The position numbers and the translations under genes are program-made. The notes under the pieces were generated by a model. The model saw nothing but the letters and a program-made list of their open reading frames with translations, did no database searches and was not told where the DNA came from. Source: Bacteroidales bacterium (GTDB lineage Bacteria > Bacteroidota > Bacteroidia > Bacteroidales > UBA932). Taken from it: a DNA stretch of 50,528 nucleotides. Positions 1 through 12,295 of the stretch are shown piece by piece. Every line of letters starts with the position of its first letter. Positions within the stretch are counted from its first letter, which is position 1. Location of the stretch: the NCBI GenBank assembly GCA_017962235.1, contig JAGCVS010000020.1, forward strand, positions 1-50,528, given 5' to 3'.

Positions 1-267
1 ATTTTCGGCTCCGATGTCTCGCACGAAACCTGGCGGAATGTCCGCAGCTACATGGTACTGACCGGCATTGCCTGCTTGAGTTGCAGTCCGCTGGCCGTCT
101 GGGCCGCAAGGGTGTATCTGGAGCGGTTTGCGTACCGCGTTGAAAACTACGGATGGGTGTTTGTGGTGGCAGTCATCATCTCCCTGGCCATTGCCTTTGG
201 AACGGTGCTATGGCAGACGCTGAAGGCGGCGAAAACGAATCCGGCGATTGAGCTAAAGAAGGAGTAA
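1..267 (+). CDS. ABC transporter permease, FtsX/MacB type, C-terminal fragment
   Basis: The frame is open from base 1, so the gene begins outside the window and only about 88 C-terminal residues are present. Two hydrophobic segments are visible (about residues 18-35 and 50-70 of the fragment). They are followed by the cytoplasmic ending KAAKTNPAIELKKE, which is the usual ending of FtsX/MacB-like permeases (AA-x-NP-x-x-x-L). Such proteins pair with an ATPase to move lipoproteins, peptides or drugs, or to transmit signals across the inner membrane. The partner ATPase is not in the window. A strong hairpin follows 40 bases downstream. The family call is fairly firm; the substrate is unknown. Confidence 0.8.
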   Translation: MFGSDVSHETWRNVRSYMVLTGIACLSCSPLAVWAARVYLERFAYRVENYGWVFVVAVIISLAIAFGTVLWQTLKAAKTNPAIELKKE

Positions 268-307
268 AGGCTTCATAAGCATAGTTAAACATAAATACTA
301 CTTCATG

Positions 308-344
308 AAAACTGCCGTCATCCTGTTGGGGTGGCGGCAGTTTT
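308..344 (+). terminator. Intrinsic terminator after the ABC permease
   Basis: AAAACTGCCG at 308-317 pairs perfectly with CGGCAGTTTT at 335-344 around a 17-base loop, giving a 10-bp stem with A- and T-runs at the ends. It ends the permease transcript and marks the left edge of the accessory cassette. The rest of 268-440 shows nothing else supportable. Confidence 0.7.
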
Positions 345-440
345 AAGATGGCTCCCTTTGGACAACCGTTCGAGATGTCGGGCGAGAATGAATTAATAAT
401 ACACACTTTCGTCCGCTATCACGCATTCTCCTAGTGCTTA

Positions 441-1541
441 TTATCTTTGAGAGGTTTCCCCTTTAATCATTTTCACTCCCCATAACTCCAGCTCAAACTC
501 ATCTATGAACGCCTCCAGGTTAGCGTGATGTTCGGGAGGGAAGAGTTCAGCGGCCTTGAGGAAGGCGGTGGAGTGTTTCTTTTCGGTGGCAGCTGCTGGG
601 TGTGTCTTATAGCGGATGAGCCAGTCGGCGATGTCTATGTGTGCAGCGATGTCTTCCGGGGTGGCTTCTTGCTGGAGTAGAGTGCTGACCTTGATTTTAA
701 GGTCAGGATAGGAGGCGAGTTTGTGGGTCCAGTCGTCGTAGCCGTCGATGTCGGGGTAGGCGATAGTTTTGCGGCCTTTCAGTACCAGGAGCCTGTCGTT
801 GATTTGTGATTTGCCGCCGGTGGCGAGCCAGAGGTATCTGGGCATCAGGCCGGCGCAAATTACAGCCGTCTTCTCGGACTCTACCAGGGCGACTGGCTTG
901 CCCGGGTATTCTTTCAGGAGGTGTTCGCCGAAAAGGCACTGGGTGAGTTGCCAGTCGTCGGGCAGCTGTCCGGAGGTTTTCATCAGGGAGTGTACCCAGG
1001 TGATACGTCCGGGGGTATTCGGGTCTTTGATGCGGTGGCCAGTCTCGGGGTCGTACTTCATTATCTTGCCGGTGCGGCACCGGCCATCTTTGTCTATCTG
1101 GAAGAAGATTGTGGCTCGGTTGCGGCTGACGCCGATGCGGTATTCGTCAACTAGACCCTCTATTACGACGGGATCCAGGAAGGTTCGCAGGAAGGTGATC
1201 AGGTCGGAGTCGTGGCTGTGGGTGACACTGCGGCGGACGATGTCATCCGGGATGGTGCAGAGCGGCGCTTTGACGCGGCGGTTTACTTCGGCCTGCAGCT
1301 CGTCCTGCCAGGACTTGCCGCCTCGGGCCTCCGGGTGGTCGAGGAAGTACTGCCTGGGCGTGTAGTGGTAGCCGCAGCTGGACTCCCGGTCGCAGCGGCC
1401 TACGTTGTCGGCTAGCTTGTGGCCTTCTTCGTCTACGTAGAGGGTGAATTTGTGCATCTGGCCGCAGCTGGGGCAGGTGTGGCGGCTTGCGATGCCTTGG
1501 TATTTCTGGAGGGTGTACATTGCGGTTGGGCTGGTGTCCAC
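441..1541 (-). CDS. DUF6371-like protein with N-terminal zinc finger and Toprim-like domain
   Basis: 366 aa. The N-terminus carries a probable zinc finger (C23-x2-C26 and C50-x5-C56), as in DnaG-type primases. The middle has a Toprim-like stretch with VALVESEKTAVIC near residues 216-228 and an acidic motif YPDIDGYDDW near 262-271. This layout matches the DUF6371 proteins of Bacteroidetes mobile elements, thought to be primase-like replication proteins (family knowledge; the activity here is inferred). It is last in a three-gene minus-strand unit after an HTH protein and a RecA-fold ATPase, 67 bases downstream of the latter. A start at Met8 (1520) is possible because the conserved part begins at YTLQKY. 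Confidence 0.7.
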   Translation of the reverse strand: MDTSPTAMYTLQKYQGIASRHTCPSCGQMHKFTLYVDEEGHKLADNVGRCDRESSCGYHYTPRQYFLDHPEARGGKSWQDELQAEVNRRVKAPLCTIPDDIVRRSVTHSHDSDLITFLRTFLDPVVIEGLVDEYRIGVSRNRATIFFQIDKDGRCRTGKIMKYDPETGHRIKDPNTPGRITWVHSLMKTSGQLPDDWQLTQCLFGEHLLKEYPGKPVALVESEKTAVICAGLMPRYLWLATGGKSQINDRLLVLKGRKTIAYPDIDGYDDWTHKLASYPDLKIKVSTLLQQEATPEDIAAHIDIADWLIRYKTHPAAATEKKHSTAFLKAAELFPPEHHANLEAFIDEFELELWGVKMIKGETSQR

Positions 1542-1608
1542 GCGTCCACGAGCGGGTATGAAGTGCCCGCCGTGGATTGGATGGACATCGTGGACAGTTG
1601 TGGTTGGG

Positions 1609-2673
1609 TTAGTCGAAGAGGGAGGGGGAGAGCTCGATTACTTCGCTGTCCACACCGTCCGTTCCGGCAACTTCGTTTGTGCCCGTGGACGTGGACAGGG
1701 ACTTGAGTTTGGTGGCAATCTTGCCCACCAGAGACTTGGAAATGCCCAGGATGGAGGCTATCTCGCGATAGGATTTGTTCTTGTCCAGCAGCTCTTTAAC
1801 GTTGTCAAGGCGGATGTTGTCGTCTTCCGGGGTGCGTTCGCGGAGGTGCTCGTACTCGGAGTCAAAGTTCCTGAACTGGAAGTGGACATAGCCGTCGGCG
1901 TTGGATATTTCGTAGACGATGACGTTGTCGCTGTCGTAGCGGAATTCGCCGGCACGGACTTTCAGCTGCTTGACGTAGCGCAGGCTCTTATCCTTGGCGC
2001 TTTTGCCTATGGCTATGACGCTGTCGAAGAAGTTGTAGAGTTTCTTGCTGCCGGCCAGGTCGTTCTGGGTGATTGGGCTGCTGAGTGCCCGCTTGGGTGT
2101 GTGAGCCACTATCAGGAGCGACCAGCCGTACTGCTTTTTGAGGTTCATCAGCTTCATCATAAAGATGCCGGCATCGGCGCCTTTGTCGCTGTTGTTGCAG
2201 AGGTAGGTTAAGTTGTCGATGATGACAACTTTGCATCCCAGCTGCTGCATTGCCTCTTCTATGTGGGCAAGGATGTTCTCTTCGTAGTTCTTGACGTTGA
2301 GTGCCATAGGGTTGATTTCTGCCCGGAGCAGGCCCGGGGGAAACTTGTGGAGTATGCCGGTGTCGCGGTCTGTGTAGCGCATCTGGAATTGTTTGTCGGA
2401 GAGTTCGCAGTCTACGAGCAGTACGTTTTGGTGACGTGCTATCTCTTCTGCCATCTGGACTGCAAAGATGGATTTGCCCAGGTTGGAGTCGGAGAAGAGG
2501 CAACACACCTCGCCTTCGTACCAGAGTTCGTAGTAGAGGGGGTCGGGGTTGGGCCTTGCGTGCGCGTCGGAGAGAGTGCGGTTGGCGCTCTTGATGGTGA
2601 ACATTCCGATGTTCTCCGTTGCAGCTGCACTCTCGATCTCGGCGCTGATGGCTTTGATAGGATCTGTCTGCAT
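1609..2673 (-). CDS. RecA-fold AAA ATPase (RepA/AAA_25-like) with C-terminal helix-turn-helix
   Basis: 354 aa. A P-loop-like motif SDSNLGKS lies at residues 61-68 and a Walker B strand VVIIDN ends at about D153. A sensor-like IVAHTPKR follows near 188-195. The overall pattern is that of RepA/AAA_25 replicative-helicase-like ATPases of plasmids and integrated elements. Residues about 289-325 form a helix-turn-helix (YREIASILGISKSLVGKI). The first glycine of Walker A is replaced by Ser, which is unusual. It lies between the HTH protein (15-base gap) and the DUF6371-like protein, so the three probably form a replication module. The exact biochemical role is inferred. Confidence 0.72.
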   Translation of the reverse strand: MQTDPIKAISAEIESAAATENIGMFTIKSANRTLSDAHARPNPDPLYYELWYEGEVCCLFSDSNLGKSIFAVQMAEEIARHQNVLLVDCELSDKQFQMRYTDRDTGILHKFPPGLLRAEINPMALNVKNYEENILAHIEEAMQQLGCKVVIIDNLTYLCNNSDKGADAGIFMMKLMNLKKQYGWSLLIVAHTPKRALSSPITQNDLAGSKKLYNFFDSVIAIGKSAKDKSLRYVKQLKVRAGEFRYDSDNVIVYEISNADGYVHFQFRNFDSEYEHLRERTPEDDNIRLDNVKELLDKNKSYREIASILGISKSLVGKIATKLKSLSTSTGTNEVAGTDGVDSEVIELSPSLFD

Positions 2674-2688
2674 AGCGCGCTCCTGGGG

Positions 2689-2973
2689 TTAGTGCTGGTA
2701 ACGGTAGACGGCCCTTGTCTCGATGGCCTCGTCGAGTTCATCAGCATCTACGAGGGTCTTGCCCTCGACCTTGAGGATGGTGATTTTGCCTTTGTTGGCC
2801 AGACGGTAGAAGGTGGTGGTGCCTATCTTGAGGTGTTTGCAGGCCTCCTCGCGGGTGTAGTAGCGCTTTTCGTTCTTCACTGCGGTTTCTGCGTTGGCTT
2901 CTGCGATGGCTTCTGCGATGATGGGTTTGAGGATGTCTTTTACAAGACCACGGATTGCATCAGTGTCTGACAT
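2689..2973 (-). CDS. Small helix-turn-helix DNA-binding protein (HTH_17/excisionase-like)
   Basis: 94 aa. After an Ala/Glu-rich N-terminal helix, residues about 38-86 read YYTREEACKHLKIGTTTFYR and continue into a wing (KGKITILKVEGKTLVD). This is the winged-helix fold of HTH_17/MerR-like excisionases, which in Bacteroidetes elements sit upstream of replication or mobilisation genes. It is the first gene of the minus-strand arm. A perfect inverted repeat at 3102-3117, upstream of its start, could be its operator (inference). It could be a regulator, an excisionase or a replication accessory protein. Confidence 0.7.
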   Translation of the reverse strand: MSDTDAIRGLVKDILKPIIAEAIAEANAETAVKNEKRYYTREEACKHLKIGTTTFYRLANKGKITILKVEGKTLVDADELDEAIETRAVYRYQH

Positions 2974-3555
2974 AGTTTCGATTTCTTAAAATGTGATGGA
3001 AAAAAGGAGTCGCGACGTCCTGCTGCCCGTTTGACAGCAGTTGTAAAAGTATAGTCAAAATGTGGAAATATGAAAAGTGAAAATCGCTGTTTCCGGGTAC
3101 TGCAAAAGTGTTTTTGCTATCGACTGTCACCCGATTTAACCCACTGTGAATCTTGCTGATATGTGTTAATCTCTTTGCTGGAGAATTGGGCTCTGAGAGC
3201 GGCTGGCCATTGGTTGTTTGGTGCCCTGGGCTGTGCATAATTTTTAAAAGAATTTTTGCGGCAGTTCTATGTTAAAACTTTTAAGATTCGGGATATAGGA
3301 AATGGAGTTAGCAAACGTCAGAAAGGTGTGTTTCTTTTCTTGCCATTTGTTTCCCTGACATTTCAAAATCGTAGTGGAATTTTTCACCCCTATGCCGTAA
3401 TTTATGTGTTATGTGGGCTGATTTCTTACACATTCGAAAAATAATTTCAAATAGTTGATATAGAAACTATTACGCAATTTGTATTGCCACTTAATGTGCC
3501 GAAATTCGCACTTAGACAGATGATTGCAGTTTGATACTTCTGACATATTTGAAAA
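2974..3555. other. AT-rich divergent intergenic region of the cassette (582 bp)
   Basis: No convincing gene is seen. The short open frames here (3256-3444, 2960-3238 and 3409-3677 on either strand) have no family features. The region separates the minus-strand replication-like arm from the plus-strand structural/lysis arm, so promoters for both should lie here. It holds an inverted repeat CTGCTG...CAGCAG at 3020-3040 and a perfect one, GCAAAA...TTTTGC, at 3102-3117. No exact TAnnTTTG element was found on either strand. It is clearly richer in A+T than the flanking genes. An origin of replication or a control switch is possible but not shown. Confidence 0.5.
3102..3117. promoter_or_regulatory. 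Candidate operator: perfect inverted repeat
   Basis: GCAAAA (3102-3107) and TTTTGC (3112-3117) form a perfect 6-bp inverted repeat around a 4-base centre. It lies 129 bases upstream of the HTH gene start. The size and symmetry suit a dimeric repressor, but no second copy was found, so this is only a candidate. Confidence 0.3.
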
Positions 3556-4620
3556 ATGATAGTTCGCCCTTCCATAGCCTTCTCGGGATTCTCCGGATCT
3601 GCCAAGGATGTTACGGCCCGCCAAGTGCACGGCCGTAGCATCCTTTCTTGCAGAACGTGGCCTACCGGTATGGCCACGCCTGTTCAGTTGGTGCGTCGCG
3701 CTTCGCTCCGGCAGATTTCGAAGTCGTTTCAGACATTGACCTCTGAGCAGATGGCTGCCTGGAATACCCTTGCCAAGGGGGTCAAGAGTAAGACCATACT
3801 GGGTGAGGCGGCGGAGATCTCCGGACTGAACCTATACATCAAGTTGAACTACAATAGGGTGATGGCTGGCTATAGCATTATGGCTGACGCCCCGGCTGCT
3901 CTGCGTGCTGTGCCTAACGTAGTATATGAGGCTGCGTGGGTTACTCTTACGGCCGTTATCATCAAGGGTATAGAGCACGAGGAAATGCCGTTCAAGCTGG
4001 TTGTGAGGATGTCCGGCGGCCAGAGCAACGGCGTGTCCAAGGGTTGGAGCAAGACGGTGATTATCTCTCCCGGTATGGAGGAGGACTGGGGTGACGCCGA
4101 TGTTACCAAGCTCTATTTCTCCACCATCGGCGTGCAGCCTGCTCTGGGCGAAAAGGTGTTCCTTGAGATGTACTGGTTGAACACAACCACCGGCGTGACC
4201 GGGTTGGATGCTCGTGACTCCATCACCTGCATCACGGATGAGGAAGCTTCCATCGAGGGACTGACCGTCCGCTTCAAATTCAACGAGATGGATCTGTACG
4301 AGGGAAGGGCTAGTTCTGTGTCTGACTATGACCTGGACTTCTCTACCGGCATCGCAGCCGCTTATATAGATGCAATTTGCACCGGCGGTGCGACTGAGGG
4401 ATATTCTTCCCTATACCTGAACACTGCGTTCCCGGAGCAGGTCAAAGGACCGTTCAACTGCGTCGCCAGGAGTACCGAGGCTAACGGGAACCTCAAGGTG
4501 CAGCTCTGTACAGTGGAAGTGAAGAATAGCAAGAATTATTCTCAGCTGTCCATCGCCACAATAGCCGGCAATACCGGCGTTCCTTCACACGTGTTCGGTG
4601 TGGGTATCAGATATGAATAA
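3556..4620 (+). CDS. Phage-like protein, paralogue A (354 aa, unknown function)
   Basis: No signal peptide or membrane segment. Residues about 6-225 are colinear with the 230-aa protein at 6121-6813. Shared landmarks are SIAF, SGSAK-x-VTA, LTSxQ-x-x-AWN, LG-x4-ISG-x-NL, GQSNGV and KVF. The extra C-terminal part (about 230-354) is rich in beta-type sequence and has no match in the paralogue. The gene starts the plus-strand arm and is followed 15 bases later by another unknown gene. The company of holin-like, spanin-like and amidase genes suggests a virion or particle component, but no known capsid or tail family is recognised. The start at 3556 follows an AT-rich stretch, and the conserved block begins at about residue 5. 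Confidence 0.6.
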   Translation: MIVRPSIAFSGFSGSAKDVTARQVHGRSILSCRTWPTGMATPVQLVRRASLRQISKSFQTLTSEQMAAWNTLAKGVKSKTILGEAAEISGLNLYIKLNYNRVMAGYSIMADAPAALRAVPNVVYEAAWVTLTAVIIKGIEHEEMPFKLVVRMSGGQSNGVSKGWSKTVIISPGMEEDWGDADVTKLYFSTIGVQPALGEKVFLEMYWLNTTTGVTGLDARDSITCITDEEASIEGLTVRFKFNEMDLYEGRASSVSDYDLDFSTGIAAAYIDAICTGGATEGYSSLYLNTAFPEQVKGPFNCVARSTEANGNLKVQLCTVEVKNSKNYSQLSIATIAGNTGVPSHVFGVGIRYE

Positions 4621-4635
4621 TAGCACTCAAGAGAT

Positions 4636-5376
4636 ATGTTCGTTTCTACATCAAATAACTTCGGCGCAGGCCAGATCCAGTTCAAGGATTACCAGTGCAG
4701 CCTGTATGTGGTGCTGAACGCCAAGTTCACGGTAAACACCAGCTCGCCGGCTTATCTGGCTGCATCCCGTATGGAAATCAAGGTGCCCGACCTGAGCATA
4801 GGTCGCAGCGTGGAAGTGCCTGTTGCGATTCGCTTCGCCGACAGGCGCACAATCAGCGGTCAGGAGGTGAATTGCGACGGTGGCACAGTACTGATATCAA
4901 AGGTCGCCGACAAGAATACTATCGTGATTGAGCGCCATCGGCTCTTTGACAACCAGGGAGAGATGACCATCATCATCTCTGCGATGTATGCCACCCTGAA
5001 CAACGGCAACAATCCCCAGAAGGTACAGAGAACTATGCTTCAACTGCAGCAGGAGAATCCGTACCTGTATATGTCCGATAGCGCATACTTCGTAGCCGAC
5101 CAGCACTGGGTGTTCCTGTGTATGGGATTCTCTCATTGCCTGTACGACTACAAGAATCTGCCGTGGGAAGCCACCCTCAAGGATTTCCCTACCGACGTAA
5201 CTGCCGACGTGGCTTTCATCGGAGGCGTGAATGCCTACAATCCCCAGGTGTGCGGTATGGGCGAGGCTCACATAGAGAACGGAGTGTTCACGATGCAGGA
5301 GCGTATGTATAATTTCTGCGAGGGCAGCCCCAAGCCGTTTGTGTTCGCGTTCCTCGTAAGGGATACTCAAGAGTAA
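4636..5376 (+). CDS. Unknown 246-aa protein of the phage-like cassette
   Basis: The family is not recognised. The protein has no signal peptide and no clear membrane helix. It is mixed hydrophobic/aromatic and looks beta-rich, with several Cys residues (for example in QCSLYV, VNCDGG, FLCMGF and PQVCGMG). It lies 15 bases after paralogue A and 5 bases before the holin-like gene, so it is almost certainly co-transcribed. Soluble, structural-looking and unique in the window, it is a reasonable candidate for a particle protein. That is inference from position only. Confidence 0.5.
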   Translation: MFVSTSNNFGAGQIQFKDYQCSLYVVLNAKFTVNTSSPAYLAASRMEIKVPDLSIGRSVEVPVAIRFADRRTISGQEVNCDGGTVLISKVADKNTIVIERHRLFDNQGEMTIIISAMYATLNNGNNPQKVQRTMLQLQQENPYLYMSDSAYFVADQHWVFLCMGFSHCLYDYKNLPWEATLKDFPTDVTADVAFIGGVNAYNPQVCGMGEAHIENGVFTMQERMYNFCEGSPKPFVFAFLVRDTQE

Positions 5377-5381
5377 TAACG

Positions 5382-5651
5382 ATGAAGACCAGGAATCACA
5401 TAGAGCTGACCAGACTGCAGGGCATCATCGCAGTTGCGAGCTTCTCTTCTGGAGTGACCATAGCGGCTATGTGTCTGTTCTTCATAGAGCCCCTGGGGGA
5501 GATAGCCAACTCGGCCATCAGCATAGTTTCGGAGCTGCTAGTTCTATGCGGGGCAATACTGGGCGTCAAGGCCGGATACGATGTGAAGTTCCGGAGGTTT
5601 GAAGCAGAGCTCAGGCACAAAGTTGACAAGACTACTGAAGAAGAACAATGA
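5382..5651 (+). CDS. Holin-like small membrane protein (two TM segments)
   Basis: 89 aa. Two hydrophobic segments (about residues 13-36 and 40-66) join through a short turn (EPLGE) and are followed by a charged C-terminal tail (KFRRFEAELRHKVDKTTEEE). This is the size and layout of phage holins, which permeabilise the inner membrane to release or activate the endolysin. It overlaps the next gene by 4 bases (ATGA) and sits just ahead of a spanin-like lipoprotein, which strengthens the lysis interpretation. It could also be an unrelated small membrane protein. Confidence 0.55.
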   Translation: MKTRNHIELTRLQGIIAVASFSSGVTIAAMCLFFIEPLGEIANSAISIVSELLVLCGAILGVKAGYDVKFRRFEAELRHKVDKTTEEEQ

Positions 5652-6109
5652 GACAGATTTTGACATACATACTACTCCTGATTGCTGCCGCCAGCTGCGC
5701 AGTCGCGAAGCCGGTAGCCGGAAACAGCACCGTAGAAGTGCGCTACATCACCGAGACGGTACACGACACGGCCGTTGTGGAGCTGCCGGTGATCATTGAG
5801 CACAACGTCACGCTGGATACCACATCCCATCTGGAGAATACATACGCCAGGAGCGATGCAGTTGTCTCAGCTGGAGTGCTCCGCCACAGCCTACAGACGA
5901 AACCGGTGAAGCTGCCGGTGGTCGTGGAGAAGAAGATCATCTACAGGGACTCCATCAGGACTCAGGAGATTGTGGTGCCGGAGACGGTAGAAGTTGAGAA
6001 ACCGCTCACGTTCTGGCAAAAGGTAAAACTGAAGATTGGCGGGATCGCCATAGTGATGACACTATTATTTGGACTTTACGTTTCATTAAAAATATTCCTT
6101 AACCATTAA
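5648..6109 (+). CDS. u-spanin-like lipoprotein with C-terminal membrane anchor
   Basis: 153 aa. A lipoprotein signal peptide ends in AAAS-C17, and a second hydrophobic segment lies at the very C-terminus (about 131-150), preceded by LTFWQKVKLKIGG. The region between is periplasmic and rich in beta-type residues and HDT/RDS motifs. Lipidation at one end and a membrane helix at the other is the architecture of unimolecular spanins such as T1 gp11, which fuse inner and outer membranes in the last step of lysis (family knowledge). Similar short HDT-rich lipoproteins follow holin-like genes in Bacteroides phages. The functional call is inferred from architecture and position. Confidence 0.55.
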   Translation: MRQILTYILLLIAAASCAVAKPVAGNSTVEVRYITETVHDTAVVELPVIIEHNVTLDTTSHLENTYARSDAVVSAGVLRHSLQTKPVKLPVVVEKKIIYRDSIRTQEIVVPETVEVEKPLTFWQKVKLKIGGIAIVMTLLFGLYVSLKIFLNH

Positions 6110-6120
6110 CCTTTACTATT

Positions 6121-6813
6121 ATGAAGTACATTCCTTCTATCGCTTTTGAAGAGATGTCTGGCTCCGCCAAGGGCGTGACCGCAGCGAAGGTCAAGAGCCG
6201 TAAGTACATCCGCAACCGTGGCTACGGCGGGAGCACCCGCACCAGCTATCAGGCATCCGTCAAGTCTGTGTTCAAGCAGCTGAGCCAGGCTTGGAAAGGT
6301 CTCACCAGCGCGCAGATTCTCGCGTGGAATGCTGCCGCCAACACTGCAGAGGGTCGCTCTGTCCTGGGAACCAAGAGCAAGATTTCCGGTGCCAACCTCT
6401 TTATGAGGCTGAATTACTGGGTCGTTTTCTGCGGTGGCCAGATCATGACCACTCCGCCCACTCTTGCGGGTGTGGAGACTCCTTCCTCTGCCACCATCGT
6501 GTGCCAGGGTGACACTTTCACCTTCAAGCTGGATCAGGCAATCGCCGACAATGGCGGTATCTACCTGGTTATTGAGGCTACCGAAGGCCAGAGCAACGGC
6601 GTAACCCGTGCCTACAGCAAGGCTGCCAACATCAAGATGGTGGAAGAGCCCACCGCAGCTGCAGTGGATATCCACAGTGAGTATGCTGCGAAGTACGGTG
6701 CCCTGAGCGCAGGCGCGCCCAAGGTGTTCTTCCGCTACTTCTATGTCAACTCCTCCACCGGCGAGAAGTCTGGCACCATGCTGGCCGAAGCCACCTGGAC
6801 TGCAGGTGCGTAG
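6121..6813 (+). CDS. Phage-like protein, paralogue B (230 aa, unknown function)
   Basis: The whole protein is a diverged paralogue of residues about 6-225 of the gene at 3556. Landmarks in the same order are SIAFEEMSGSAKGVTA, a basic patch near residues 24-34, LTSAQILAWN, LGTKSKISGANLF, EGQSNGVTRAYSK and KVFFRYFYVNSSTGE. There is no signal peptide or TM segment. It lies 11 bases after the spanin-like gene and just before a strong terminator, so it closes the plus-strand unit. The helical, basic N-terminal third and beta-like C-terminal part would suit a nucleic-acid-contacting or particle protein. No family could be named. Confidence 0.6.
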   Translation: MKYIPSIAFEEMSGSAKGVTAAKVKSRKYIRNRGYGGSTRTSYQASVKSVFKQLSQAWKGLTSAQILAWNAAANTAEGRSVLGTKSKISGANLFMRLNYWVVFCGGQIMTTPPTLAGVETPSSATIVCQGDTFTFKLDQAIADNGGIYLVIEATEGQSNGVTRAYSKAANIKMVEEPTAAAVDIHSEYAAKYGALSAGAPKVFFRYFYVNSSTGEKSGTMLAEATWTAGA

Positions 6814-6847
6814 TCGCCCCGTTCCAGTCCTGAATCCTGGAATAGTT

Positions 6848-6879
6848 AACCCCATCGGAATTCATCCGGCGGGGTTTTC
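6848..6879 (+). terminator. Intrinsic terminator closing the phage-like unit
   Basis: AACCCC (6848-6853) pairs with GGGGTT (6871-6876), with an inner CGG/CCG pairing after a small internal loop, then TTTTCTTG. It lies 35 bases after the stop of paralogue B, so the five genes at 3556-6813 form one transcription unit. Confidence 0.7.
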
Positions 6880-6956
6880 TTGTTAGCAAAAAAAAGAAAT
6901 GACATTATGGTGATATTTCCCGGATTGCTGCATTTATTAGGATAAACAATCTAGTT

Positions 6957-7391
6957 ATGAAAAAGATACTTGTTTCTTTACTTTGTGTGCTGTTGTTGAG
7001 CTCTTGCATAAAGAGCCAGAAATCATCCCCCGTAAGAGAAGTCAGGATTACGAACGAGTCTTCCTACGAACTTGTTTTTACCGATATTGACAACGGTGGT
7101 GATCCGACATTCTGGCCTCAGACCAGTTTTACGCTGAAACCGCATGAAGAGTATTCCCAGTTTTGTTACAACATACCCAAAGACTCTCCTTATAGGCTTG
7201 CACCAGTGTCAATGACACTTGAATGCGACGGGAAGACAATCTATTTCAGCGGGTCATCCAATTATGAGAAGAATCCCTGCGATGTTGCTGATTATTACGA
7301 ACTCGACAACTTCTCTAAGTACGGGCCAGGTCTCCATTATCAATTCATCATCGATGATGAAGACATTGAAAAATGGCTGAGTGCGGAATAA
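6957..7391 (+). CDS. Small lipoprotein of unknown function, cassette cargo
   Basis: 144 aa. A clear lipoprotein signal peptide ends in LLSS-C17. The mature part is polar and beta-rich, with an acidic end (DDEDIEKW). It stands alone between two terminators, so it is transcribed independently of the phage-like unit. Single lipoproteins of this kind in integrated elements are often cargo, for example for exclusion of other phages, but nothing in the sequence shows a specific role. Confidence 0.55.
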   Translation: MKKILVSLLCVLLLSSCIKSQKSSPVREVRITNESSYELVFTDIDNGGDPTFWPQTSFTLKPHEEYSQFCYNIPKDSPYRLAPVSMTLECDGKTIYFSGSSNYEKNPCDVADYYELDNFSKYGPGLHYQFIIDDEDIEKWLSAE

Positions 7392-7416
7392 ACAATACAG
7401 TTATTAAGATACAGAA

Positions 7417-7450
7417 CAACCCCCGATGGCTTTATGGCTTTCGGGGGTTG
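7417..7450. terminator. Bidirectional terminator between lipoprotein and amidase
   Basis: CAACCCCCGA (7417-7426) pairs perfectly with TCGGGGGTTG (7441-7450), giving a 10-bp GC-rich stem with a 14-base loop. It lies between the convergent genes ending at 7391 and 7467 and can serve both. Confidence 0.7.
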
Positions 7451-7466
7451 CTGCTTTGTTTGTGTC

Positions 7467-8054
7467 TTATGATAGGTATTGAATAATTCCTTCGACGTGT
7501 AGCCTGACTATTGCTGCAGCTCCTTCTTCTGACTCCAGGAAGGCGACATCGTCCTGGTTGTCCATAAATAAGTTTTCTGTCAGGACTGCAGGGCAGCTGG
7601 TGTGGCGGAGAAGGTAGAAGTTCTCCTCGATGTCGGGGTCCCCATCTGTATAGTCCATCCTGAGTTTGTGGCCGGGCAGGTGCTCTGTCGCGGCTCGATA
7701 GAGGCTCGTTGCGAGCTCGTCTGCCCGTGTCTGGCCGGGAGTAGTGTAGCAACTCCAGCCTTGGGCGTTCACCCATTCTGAGCCGTTTCCTGCGGCGTTG
7801 ACGTGTATGGATATCAACAGTACCTGGTCACTGCCCAGCTGGCGACATATCTGGTTGGTCCGACGGCATCGCTCTGCTAGGGAGATGTCTTCCATCTCCG
7901 GAACGAGCAGCTGGGAATCCAGGCCGTTGCTCTTCAAACGCTGGTGGATCTGACTTGCTATATATCTATTATAGGCGAACTCGCGGAACAATCCATCTGG
8001 ACTTCGCTTCCCGGGAGTGTCAATGCCGTGGCCATTATCGAGGAGAATCTTCAT
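7467..8054 (-). CDS. N-acetylmuramoyl-L-alanine amidase (Amidase_3), endolysin-like
   Basis: 195 aa, a single catalytic domain without signal peptide. The zinc ligands and catalytic Glu of the Amidase_3 family are all visible: H9 in DNGHG, E25, H84 in SIHVNA and E160 in LTENLF. The enzyme cuts the amide bond between MurNAc and L-Ala of peptidoglycan. Lack of a signal peptide fits an endolysin that needs a holin, and holin- and spanin-like genes lie 1.4-2.1 kb away in the same cassette. Amidases of this type are also common cargo of small Bacteroidetes integrated cassettes. The enzyme call is strong; the lysis role is inferred. Confidence 0.82.
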   Translation of the reverse strand: MKILLDNGHGIDTPGKRSPDGLFREFAYNRYIASQIHQRLKSNGLDSQLLVPEMEDISLAERCRRTNQICRQLGSDQVLLISIHVNAAGNGSEWVNAQGWSCYTTPGQTRADELATSLYRAATEHLPGHKLRMDYTDGDPDIEENFYLLRHTSCPAVLTENLFMDNQDDVAFLESEEGAAAIVRLHVEGIIQYLS

Positions 8055-8111
8055 CTTGAGCAGGTTTAAGGTTGCTGCAAGATGGGGAGAATATGTGGTA
8101 ATCGCTATTGC

Positions 8112-8259
8112 CTATTATTTCCAATAGTATAGACGGGGAAGGTTTCTCCGGGGAGCCACAATTAACTAAAAGGCCGGGAGCCACAAGTCCAGTGGCGCTC
8201 CAGGCCCATCTATCTATACTTCTTCAAAATTTATAAAAGGAAGCCACAAAGAAGCCACA
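8112..8259. repeat. Cassette right-end region: AGCCACA repeats and hairpins
   Basis: Four direct copies of AGCCACA occur at 8154-8160, 8179-8185, 8242-8248 and 8253-8259. A long imperfect hairpin pairs 8172-8184 with 8192-8206, and a small inverted repeat CTATT...AATAG lies at 8112-8127. The region is between the amidase start and the tRNA-Asp terminator and holds no gene. Short repeats next to a tRNA 3' end resemble recombinase arm sites of an integrated element, but no recombinase is present. Confidence 0.4.
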
Positions 8260-8270
8260 TTTTGGAAAGC

Positions 8271-8303
8271 AAATGGCCTCACAGGTATCTGTAAGGCCAT
8301 TTT
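8271..8303 (-). terminator. Terminator of tRNA-Asp
   Basis: AAATGGCCT (8271-8279) pairs with AGGCCATTT (8294-8302), giving a 9-bp stem, with the loop partly pairing as well (ACAG/CTGT). It starts 4 bases after the 3' end of tRNA-Asp on the minus strand. Confidence 0.65.
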
Positions 8304-8306
8304 CAG

Positions 8307-8380
8307 CGGTGCGGACGAGACTCGAACTCGCGACCCCCGGCGTGACAGGCCGGTATTCTAACCAGCTGAACTACCGCACC
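8307..8380 (-). tRNA. tRNA-Asp (GTC)
   Basis: The minus strand folds into a complete cloverleaf. The acceptor GGTGCGG (8374-8380) pairs with CCGCACC (8308-8314), with G as discriminator at 8307. The D-arm is AGTTCAGCTGGTTAGA, the anticodon loop CTGTCAC gives GTC, and the T-arm contains GTTCGAGTC. The CCA end is not encoded. A near-perfect promoter lies at 8408-8438. The phage-like cassette begins just beyond its 3' end, a classic integration position. Confidence 0.95.
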
Positions 8381-8407
8381 AAGTGTTTGGTTTTCCAAAC
8401 GGGACTG

Positions 8408-8438
8408 CAAATATAGCCGTTAAATTTGATTATGCAAA
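8408..8438 (-). promoter_or_regulatory. Promoter of tRNA-Asp (Bacteroidetes type)
   Basis: On the minus strand, TTTG (8435-8438) and TATATTTG (8408-8415) are separated by exactly 19 bases, a perfect match to TTTG-N19-21-TAnnTTTG. The -33 box lies within the last codons of rsmD. Confidence 0.75.
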
Positions 8439-8972
8439 ACTTTTTCTAAAAAAGCTGAAGTGCACGTTTCCGTACCGTTTCTCCTTTATAAAGCAGGGCT
8501 CTGAAGAGAAGTTGTGGTCGGCGCCGTGCTCCAGGATAAACCAGCCGTCATCGGCCAGAAAACCGGCTCCCAACACCTTTGAGGGAAGGTTCTCAAGTCC
8601 TTCAAGGGCGTATGGCGGGTCTGCGAAAACCAAGTTGAAGCTCTTGGTGCAGATGCCGATAAAGTCGAACACGTTGTGGCGTACGACCTGCATGCCGGCA
8701 ATGCCCAGTGCTGCCGCCGTCCTTTTTATGAAACCGGCGTTCGCGGGATTCATTTCCACCGCCACGATGTCGCCGCAGCCGCGGGAGGCCATCTCGTAGC
8801 TGATGCTGCCGGTGCCGGCAAACAAATCCAGAAAGACGGTGTCTTCAAAATCTATCATCCCGGCCAGGATGTTGAACAGCCCCTCCTTTGCAAAGTCGGT
8901 GGTGGGCCGTGCAGCATAGCCGGCAGGCGGGTTGATGCTCTTGCCGCGAAGTGTGCCAGATATTATCCTCAT
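8430..8972 (-). CDS. rsmD: 16S rRNA (guanine(966)-N2)-methyltransferase RsmD
   Basis: 180 aa from the chosen start. It begins MRIISGTLRGK, the standard RsmD N-terminus, then has RPTTD, the SAM-binding motif DLFAGTGSISYE and the N6-adenine-type catalytic motif DPPY. It methylates G966 of 16S rRNA in the small subunit. An upstream start at 8987 would lie inside the terminator hairpin of the preceding gene, so 8972 is preferred. Its 3' end overlaps the tRNA-Asp promoter. Confidence 0.92.
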   Translation of the reverse strand: MRIISGTLRGKSINPPAGYAARPTTDFAKEGLFNILAGMIDFEDTVFLDLFAGTGSISYEMASRGCGDIVAVEMNPANAGFIKRTAAALGIAGMQVVRHNVFDFIGICTKSFNLVFADPPYALEGLENLPSKVLGAGFLADDGWFILEHGADHNFSSEPCFIKEKRYGNVHFSFFRKSFA

Positions 8973-8985
8973 AATCCTTACAAAC

Positions 8986-9013
8986 AAAAAACTGCCCGCG
9001 AAAGGCAGTTTTT
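8986..9013 (-). terminator. Terminator between the 9039 gene and rsmD
   Basis: AAAAACTGCC (8987-8996) pairs perfectly with GGCAGTTTTT (9004-9013) around a 7-base loop. On the minus strand it ends the transcript of the gene at 9039-9647. Confidence 0.7.
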
Positions 9014-11255: not shown

Positions 11256-12295
11256 TGCGTAAGACGATAACAATAGCGGCAGTTCTGGCGGCCATCTGCA
11301 TGGCGGCCCTCTCATGCGCGAAATATGTGTCTGAAGATAACCTTACGGCGCAGAAACGCATCCGCGAAGCCTGGATGAGAGTCAATCTGGGACGGGAGCT
11401 GGAGGCTGACGAGAACGGAATATACATACTTGAAAAGACTGTGGGCACGGGCGCTGCCATAGGCGATACCGCATACTGTCTGCTGGATTATTCCTCGCGT
11501 GACCTGGACGGTAATTACACTAAATACACCTCGGCGGAGCTGGCCAAGCGGATGGGTAAATACAACCCTACCAAATACTACTGTCCCGAGATTGTACAGA
11601 TGGGCAACTTTGCCATGTATACCCCTGTGGAGAATCTGATCAAGACTCTGAACGGCGGCGGGTCTGCGAGCTTCCTGCTCCCTCCTGAAGCCACCACATA
11701 CGATTATCCCAAGGACCTTCAGAAGTATTATAAATCCAACGGCAAAGACGGCACAAAGCCTGCCGCAAGCGAGAATTATCTGTACGACCTCAAGGTGGTG
11801 GAGGTGATAGACGATATCTACAAATATCAGATAGACAAGCTGGAGGATTATTCCAAGAAGAACTATTTCGGCATTGACTCTCTTGAGAAAGGTTTCTACT
11901 TCCGCAAGTTAAAGATCAACTCTGTGGAGAATGACACCATTGTGCCGGGGACTTCCGTAAAAGTGAATTATGTGGGGAAGCTGCTGGACGGCTTCTGCTT
12001 TGACACAAATATACAGGATACCGCAAAGGTTTATGGCCTGTACAGCCTGGGTAAGAAATACGAATCGCTCTCAGTTACATATCAGAAGAACGGTTATTCC
12101 CTTGGAGACAACGGTGAGAAGAATTTCAGCACCGATGTAATCAGAGGCTTCTCCATGGCTGTGGGCCGGATGAAATACGGAGAGCAGGCGGTCGCATTCT
12201 TCTGGTCGCCGCTGGCATACGGCTCCAAGTCTTCTGACTCCTATCCGGCTTACGCGCCGATGTGTTTCTTCCTGGAAGTCCAGAATAAAGAGTAA
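11255..12295 (+). CDS. Two-domain FKBP-like lipoprotein (GldI/PpiA-like)
   Basis: 346 aa. The lipoprotein signal ends in AALS-C21. Two FKBP-like units are visible. Residues about 60-185 (GTGAAIGDTAYCLLDY ... LIKTLNGGGSASFLLPP) look degenerate. Residues about 222-342 (VPGTSVKVNYVGKLLDG ... VIRGFSMAVGRMKYGEQAVAFF ... LAYG) are closer to a working FKBP domain. It probably acts on outer-membrane or secreted proteins. The stop of the preceding gene and this start share a base (TAATG). A strong terminator follows at 12298. Confidence 0.78.
   Translation: MRKTITIAAVLAAICMAALSCAKYVSEDNLTAQKRIREAWMRVNLGRELEADENGIYILEKTVGTGAAIGDTAYCLLDYSSRDLDGNYTKYTSAELAKRMGKYNPTKYYCPEIVQMGNFAMYTPVENLIKTLNGGGSASFLLPPEATTYDYPKDLQKYYKSNGKDGTKPAASENYLYDLKVVEVIDDIYKYQIDKLEDYSKKNYFGIDSLEKGFYFRKLKINSVENDTIVPGTSVKVNYVGKLLDGFCFDTNIQDTAKVYGLYSLGKKYESLSVTYQKNGYSLGDNGEKNFSTDVIRGFSMAVGRMKYGEQAVAFFWSPLAYGSKSSDSYPAYAPMCFFLEVQNKE

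Follow-up and report, generated by a model that had tools for sequence, protein, structure and literature searches.

The 50,528-nucleotide stretch of DNA analysed here (the window), positions 1 to 50,528 of contig JAGCVS010000020.1 in the Bacteroidales bacterium assembly GCA_017962235.1, is the whole of contig C11 of its source genome (2.07 Mb, 22 contigs, 99.0% complete) and carries, beside a tRNA-Asp gene, a compact gene cassette that is single-copy in that genome as judged on DNA. This cassette is very probably a mobile element of a tRNA-docked family. There is an even chance that it belongs to a modular family of such elements from one Bacteroidales family, satellite-like and without an integrase of its own. 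A helper-dependent, satellite-like life, to which we give equal weight for and against, best accounts for the lack of shell, packaging and integrase genes and for a 5.48-kb relative described below. A preliminary description, made from the sequence alone, had listed the genes correctly, at or near their positions, as a cassette spanning 441..8260; the tRNA-side boundary in fact reaches 8305, and the far end lies somewhere in 268-440. Replication-type and lysis genes are combined in one 7.9-kb unit. As that description had held for integrase, capsid and terminase, none of the ten cassette proteins matched, at E<=1, an integrase catalytic, capsid, portal or large-terminase family.

The gene set recurs in a fixed order. 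A pattern-based scan of one genome per species for 84,980 species yielded 85 relatives, the best 80 of which (79 loci) were used; their hosts are mostly metagenome-assembled genomes (MAGs) of rumen or gut Bacteroidales. Three core proteins define the set: P3556 (3556..4620, plus strand), P4636 (4636..5376, plus) and P6121 (6121..6813, plus). Of the 75 loci with P3556 and P4636 on one strand, 72 have the two genes side by side, and P6121 follows P4636 within 3.5 kb in all 68 testable loci, a recurrence that makes the cassette more than a chance grouping. Its description as compact is also supported. Linkage was kept in the loci tested and the core proteins fell into no family, rather than the genes being scattered over unrelated loci. 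Of 60 relatives (own genome included), 5 contain P4636, all of them within the 26 genomes of the same genus, and 9 contain P6121. A P4636 profile matched 70 of 398 genomes of the family (again including its own) in 10 of the 25 genera sampled, some matches being partial or weak; a P6121 profile run on 395 genomes across the phylum matched only its own genome. Scans of IMG/VR returned two contigs (L027/L165/L207 and L028), and single-sequence scans of it with P3556 and P4636 found none. Among the titles and abstract openings listed from the open-licence literature, none describes this gene set.

As had been proposed, P6121 is a paralogue of P3556 (32% identity, E=4.1e-27); its N-terminus is very conserved. 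A third paralogue, P0, is present in 51 of the 79 loci, mostly immediately upstream of P3556. The three core proteins matched nothing in Pfam better than E=0.097 and nothing in PHROGs or NCBIfam at E<=1, and a PDB sequence search gave one chance-level match each for queries A6 and A7 and no others. P4636 is modelled as a two-domain beta protein that aligns best with viral receptor-binding heads; P3556 comprises a poorly modelled N-terminal part, a predicted Fn3 domain and a putative C-terminal beta domain. The top Foldseek PDB match of P4636, pine vicilin (E=3.7e-4), was rejected at TM-scores <=0.14, and bicupin and norovirus matches were set aside at TM-scores <=0.20. Neither the double jelly-roll nor the HK97 fold was among the structure matches listed for the P4636 and P3556 models, and the preliminary proposal of a capsid-fold particle protein is, on these models, not supported so far. 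Some P4636 relatives, such as those in L052 and L063 (frames of 435 and 370 amino acids), have long C-terminal extensions, and several loci hold tandem pairs of P4636 genes.

These proteins bear on a rival explanation, an autonomous small virus in which P3556, P4636 and P6121 (with P0 in relatives) would build a spiked, tailless shell, with the replication arm and lysis genes completing the cycle. We consider this possible but unlikely. It is favoured by the joining of replication-type and lysis genes within 7.9 kb, by the two-domain beta architecture of P4636, and by the sole match of P6121 among 50,697 phage records, a circular 4577-bp 'Inoviridae sp.' genome present as three records (26.7% identity, E=2e-4). 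This genome, MW202486.1, encodes the P6121-like protein at L166:421-1248 together with a HUH-type Rep (PF23343); its annotation lists a DNA methyltransferase and no Zot-like gene, and none of five other proteins tested matched a capsid family. Weighing against an autonomous virus, the P4636 and P3556 models resemble receptor heads and Fn3 domains, with no capsid fold among the matches listed, P3556 and P4636 match no phage record at E<=1, and just two IMG/VR contigs were found. At the profile level the Caudoviricetes hallmarks (HK97 capsid, large terminase, portal) were absent from the ten cassette proteins, and no FtsK/HerA packaging ATPase was recognised, the sole ATPase recognised in the cassette being AAA_25/DnaB-like. 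Furthermore, no replication gene was recognised in the 5.48-kb relative (L107). The satellite reading is favoured over the virus because this relative has just four of these proteins and an RNA region; the preliminary alternative of small virus or satellite leans towards the satellite, with the virus kept as a rival.

Docking at tRNA genes is among the evidence for mobility. In the window, the host tRNA-Asp(gtc) gene (8306..8380, minus strand) is the probable docking site and is directly followed by an attachment-site-like (att-like) end (8242..8305, minus) with a hairpin (z-score -7.0) and two TGTGGCTTC repeats (9 bp) at a spacing of 11 bp; further copies of TGTGGCT stand at 8154 and 8179. 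Across the relatives, 79 flanks were testable, that is, had >=3.5 kb of sequence, some loci being testable on one side only; 26 tRNA genes lie within 3.5 kb of the block on these flanks and 25 of the 26 turn their 3' end toward it, as against 2 tRNAs on 67 flanks at 3.5-7 kb. Counted per locus, 23 of 58 testable loci have a facing tRNA and 35 do not. The tRNAs are those for Asp, Phe, Cys, Ala, Ser and Arg, and two loci with P6121 only lie by tRNA-Leu and tmRNA. Behind many of the block-side tRNAs stands a hairpin with two direct repeats about 11-12 bp apart, of locus-specific sequence, which we take to be the arm sites of a tyrosine integrase. Of the 26 near tRNAs, 18 are followed by a longest repeat pair of 9 bp or more and 20 by one of 7 bp or more; among random 75-mers, 0.6% and 3.3% reach these lengths, respectively. 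Two control sets are imperfect: three of six other tRNAs from the same loci reach 9 bp, and among nine cassette-less tRNA-Asp loci one reaches 11 bp and four reach 7 bp. The 11-bp case, at the tRNA-Asp of genome G017 (L190), may reflect another element there.

The clearest boundaries are those of L107, where 30 bp from the 3' end of tRNA-Arg recur 5.48 kb away (29/30 identical); the two copies enclose P0, P3556, P4636, a longer form of P6121 and a stretch of non-coding DNA. Such a distal tRNA-end copy was found at L107 alone among 21 tRNA flanks tested, and none was found at the far end of the window (268-440). Two loci (L100 and L111) have tandem att-like copies about 100 bp apart, and in L086 the hairpin recurs about 4 kb inward. 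The differing tRNAs, the patchy presence, the arm-like repeats and this one clear direct-repeat pair agree with the mobility at tRNA genes that had been suspected.

Comparison of sites within the genus points the same way. G017, the nearest relative by P4636, holds the full cassette at tRNA-Phe and none at tRNA-Asp. Of the 26 genus genomes, 20 gave an RsmD match; 13 of 23 matching places were fetched and ten hold tRNA-Asp, one of which (L191) was left out because it ends 56 bp past the tRNA. Cassette genes are absent from all nine informative sites, five of which share the rsmD-tRNA arrangement of the window and four of which have the tRNA inverted. The comparison that had been proposed for the tRNA-Asp locus gave nine sites without the cassette and no clean two-sided empty site for the window; in G018 the permease orthologue has other genes downstream. 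For an empty counterpart of L107, its downstream transporter was sought in 61 genomes, and of twelve loci returned six were scanned for the att sequence, five giving nothing. At the sixth, a tRNA-Arg 3' fragment (L210:1405-1467) stands next to the same transporter with unrelated cargo upstream, which suggests a hot spot with changing content. Circular copies, which had been suggested as a check, were not seen: none of 28 whole contigs had an exact terminal overlap, nor was any circular form found among L066-L085, many of which are not whole contigs.

The cassette genes are under purifying selection. Between the window and G017 the ratio of nonsynonymous to synonymous substitution (dN/dS) is 0.10-0.20 for nine genes, including 0.12 for the zinc-ribbon/DUF6371 gene (dS near saturation) and 0.20 for the ATPase gene, the lipoprotein gene being saturated. 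dS is lowest for P6121 (0.19) and highest for the near-saturated zinc-ribbon/DUF6371 gene (1.66), and this mosaic suggests that modules have been exchanged. Selection of this kind would also fit a device that is resident or domesticated: an adhesin or fibre, akin to a bacteriocin or tail fibre, that lysis releases, that the host retains and that recombination at tRNA hot spots has spread. The occurrence of fibre-head-like and Fn3 domains alongside lysis genes, in a cassette where no packaging genes were recognised, would fit it too. We hold such a device to be improbable, given the patchy presence (5 of 60 relatives, 70 of 398 genomes in the family), the different tRNAs, the att-like repeats, the replication-type arm and the nine tRNA-Asp sites without a cassette. 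Less probable still is decay from a larger prophage or integrative element, with loss of the integrase and structural genes. The lack of an integrase and of a distal att copy in the window would fit such decay, as would a C-terminal remnant of P6121 in G017 and a truncated second block in G270; the same compact set recurs in dozens of loci with frames mostly open, however, dN/dS in the window is low, and no larger parent element was seen in the loci read. The domesticated remnant of the preliminary description is likewise disfavoured by the dN/dS values and the patchy presence.

The lack of an integrase was pursued with PF00589 in 15 genomes. Every genome has PF00589 proteins and none was assigned to a block, the assignment being a judgement. 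Matches near a block in two genomes, G347 and G270, weigh against an element without its own integrase. In the first (G347:C1), the PF00589 protein lies directly after P6121 with hsdS-like genes alongside; we read it as a presumed type I restriction-modification inversion recombinase and did not count it as the element's. In the second (G270:C6), an integrase-type match (3758-4228) is separated by about 1.7 kb from a preceding P6121 that breaks off near residue 77; we attribute this to a later insertion or deletion and likewise did not count the match as the element's. That block, L222:309-4306, is a second, truncated one at a contig end, with P4636 relative, holin and spanin intact. Two more distant PF00589 proteins were not assigned to the element either: in G017 one stands some 7 kb from tRNA-Phe, toward the host side, and in G331 one some 8 kb past the replication arm. 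Excisionases are matched by cassette proteins in PHROGs (best E=3.7e-8), with weak helix-turn-helix (HTH)-type matches to small terminases (E=0.0094 and 0.018) and a DNA invertase (E=0.018).

The minus-strand arm appears to be a replication module. Its distal gene (441..1541) encodes a zinc-ribbon and DUF6371 protein (PF21957, E=2.3e-25; PF19898, E=1.8e-51; NF040506 PG0870_Nterm), followed by a RecA/DnaB-like ATPase with a C-terminal HTH (1609..2673; PF13481 AAA_25, E=7.1e-15; phrog_239 DNA primase/helicase, E=2.4e-22) and an excisionase-type HTH protein (2689..2973; HTH_17, E=4.7e-10; TIGR01764 excise, E=1e-8). We infer from these profile matches that the first two may be the primase-type and helicase halves, respectively, of a split primase-helicase. 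Relatives of the DUF6371 protein, 36-46% identical, occur in 11 Bacteroidales plasmid records, and three small Bacteroides plasmids hold the HTH-ATPase-DUF6371 trio, whole or partial, together with cfxA, two of them (L002 and L006) with mobilization and integrase genes as well. The ATPase has matches in 7 phage records, the best two being unverified 'Bacteriophage sp.' scaffolds (51-53% identity) that also encode a DUF6371 protein and none of the core proteins. Some of the trio is present in 9 of the 79 loci. The 582-bp divergent intergenic region (2974..3555) may hold an origin and promoters; no origin-type repeats were found within it, and a promoter scan gave 7 against 7.2 expected.

Many relatives carry a candidate RNA region, in the corresponding place where the layout is readable. 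A conserved region of about 1.05 kb without a conserved reading frame was found in 43 of the 79 loci (nhmmer, E<=1e-3), one being the reference copy at L107:11880-12937 (plus strand) and the other 42 lying within L086-L164; the window lacks it. One locus has both this region and the trio and 28 have neither, many of these on short contigs. In readable layouts it lies, as the trio does, at the tRNA-distal end, and it points away from the tRNA. RNAalifold on 21 aligned full copies gave z-scores of -10.7 to -31.9 over six windows of the strand reading away from the tRNA, with 174 pairs (96% standard, 90 with two-sided changes); the reverse strand gave -13.6 to -41.7, 152 pairs and 73 with two-sided changes. 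These z-scores come from column shuffling with relatedness uncontrolled, and complementary strands both tend to score well. The region is apparently a candidate large structured RNA, judged from its sequence alignment. Rfam at gathering scores gave tRNAs only in eight loci, and, taken to E=5, three chance-level eukaryotic families for the L107 copy; on positions 1-9000 of the window it gave no family besides tRNA. The large RNAs GOLLD and ROOL are found in phage and tRNA contexts. With GOLLD and ROOL as presented in the available part of PMC12286853, the relatives share a large conserved, apparently structured RNA region present in many rumen MAGs; they differ in that the eight loci hold no non-tRNA Rfam family at gathering scores, and the region is absent from the window.

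Flanking the P6121 gene are the elements of a complete-looking lysis set, as had been described: a holin-like gene (5382..5651, plus) with two hydrophobic segments, a u-spanin-like gene (5648..6109, plus) with an N-terminal lipoprotein-type segment and a C-terminal transmembrane segment, and an endolysin-type Amidase_3 gene (7467..8054, minus; PF01520, E=7.2e-25; phrog_435 endolysin, E=4e-40). At least two hydrophobic segments are present in 50 of 50 holin-like homologues, and of 49 u-spanin-like homologues, 48 combine a cysteine close to the N-terminus with a hydrophobic segment close to the C-terminus. Holin and spanin lie between P4636 and P6121 in 47 of 68 loci; at two loci without them there (L028 and L031) a phage lysozyme comes after P6121, followed in one of the two by a small coiled-coil-type and then a lipoprotein-like protein.

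For the satellite-like element we envisage that an integrase from another element would recombine the hairpin-plus-arm site at the tRNA 3' end, after which the HTH/helicase/primase arm would replicate the excised element. The Fn3 proteins P3556 and P6121 and the twin fibre-head-like P4636 may form or redirect a receptor-binding particle tip, a helper would supply shell and packaging, and holin, amidase and u-spanin would open the cell. A more speculative and rather unlikely possibility is a new virus-like class, modular and integrase-less, that borrows integrases of several specificities for insertion behind various tRNAs, builds its own small fibre-crowned particle from P0, P3556, P4636 and P6121, and in its distal module swaps the primase-helicase for the ~1.05-kb structured RNA, which would act in replication, packaging or assembly. 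If these readings are right, a virus-like family is common in one gut Bacteroidales family (70 of 398 genomes by one marker gene) and yet appears as only two contigs in a virus catalogue, plausibly since it has no hallmark gene. Attachment and lysis genes would then move together with neither integrase nor shell, and in relatives a large structured RNA would stand where the replication module stands.

Phage satellites such as PICI, P4-like elements and PLE are small, site-specifically integrated and helper-dependent for particles, and the families known so far encode an integrase together with functions for capsid hijacking or packaging. The cassette differs from PICI and P4-like elements in that no tyrosine integrase of its own was found in the cassette family scans or the 15-genome search, nor any capsid-redirecting or packaging gene beyond the weak small-terminase matches. 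Cis-mobilizable elements have recombination sites without a recombinase and are mobilised in trans. The available part of PMC11389934 treats phage satellites and hitcher elements, as well as CALIN, which also consist of recombination sites without a recombinase and are mobilised in trans. CALIN and cis-mobilizable elements are cassette arrays or remnants of integrative and conjugative elements, whereas a conserved virus-like gene set is present here. The trio is a likeness to the cfxA-bearing Bacteroides plasmids, and NBU and Tn4555-type mobilizable elements are, we presume, also bearers of it; the cassette differs from these in having fibre-like and lysis genes and no integrase or mobilization genes found within it. 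The nearest published parallel in kind that we found would be the Charybdis elements, described in the available part of PMC12324425 as small and without virus, transposon or plasmid hallmark proteins. They share with the cassette protrusion- or fibre-like proteins, a double beta-sandwich protein of about 230 amino acids and, for some, a place beside tRNAs (PMC12324425). The likeness is one of kind, taken from description. Charybdis elements differ in being marine, with putative archaeal hosts, in having an integrase in every integrated form, in a mostly undetected replication gene and in having no lysis genes mentioned, as far as that part of PMC12324425 describes them, whereas the window element has a replication-type arm.

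Lesser features complete the cassette. The terminator that had been said to close the plus-strand unit corresponds to a hairpin followed by a T-rich stretch after P6121 (hairpin 6838-6884, z-score -3.3; terminator-like feature 6844..6880, plus), and a second hairpin (7412-7452; z-score -6.8) separates a lipoprotein-like accessory gene from the amidase; a consensus terminator scan listed neither. The lipoprotein-like gene (6957..7391, plus), with a sub-threshold LPAM_1 match only (E=0.35), has among the loci compared a counterpart (53% identical) solely in G017, where the amidase is also found at the equivalent position (88% identical). The remnant of the P6121 C-terminus in G017 lies at L029:5595-5663, and the second tRNA-flank hairpin copy of L086 lies near 11870-11905, just after an intact P6121. 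The P6121 remnant or hairpin copies bracket some 4 kb that hold an antiporter-like gene, a lipoprotein and an amidase, a possible cargo insertion. Restriction-modification or methyltransferase-like genes, labelled on their open reading frame starts alone, lie just outside blocks at L103:3916-5271, L136:2464-5681, L028:3410-4762, L094:1721-6467 and L117:13115-16000, a setting that resembles defence hot spots.

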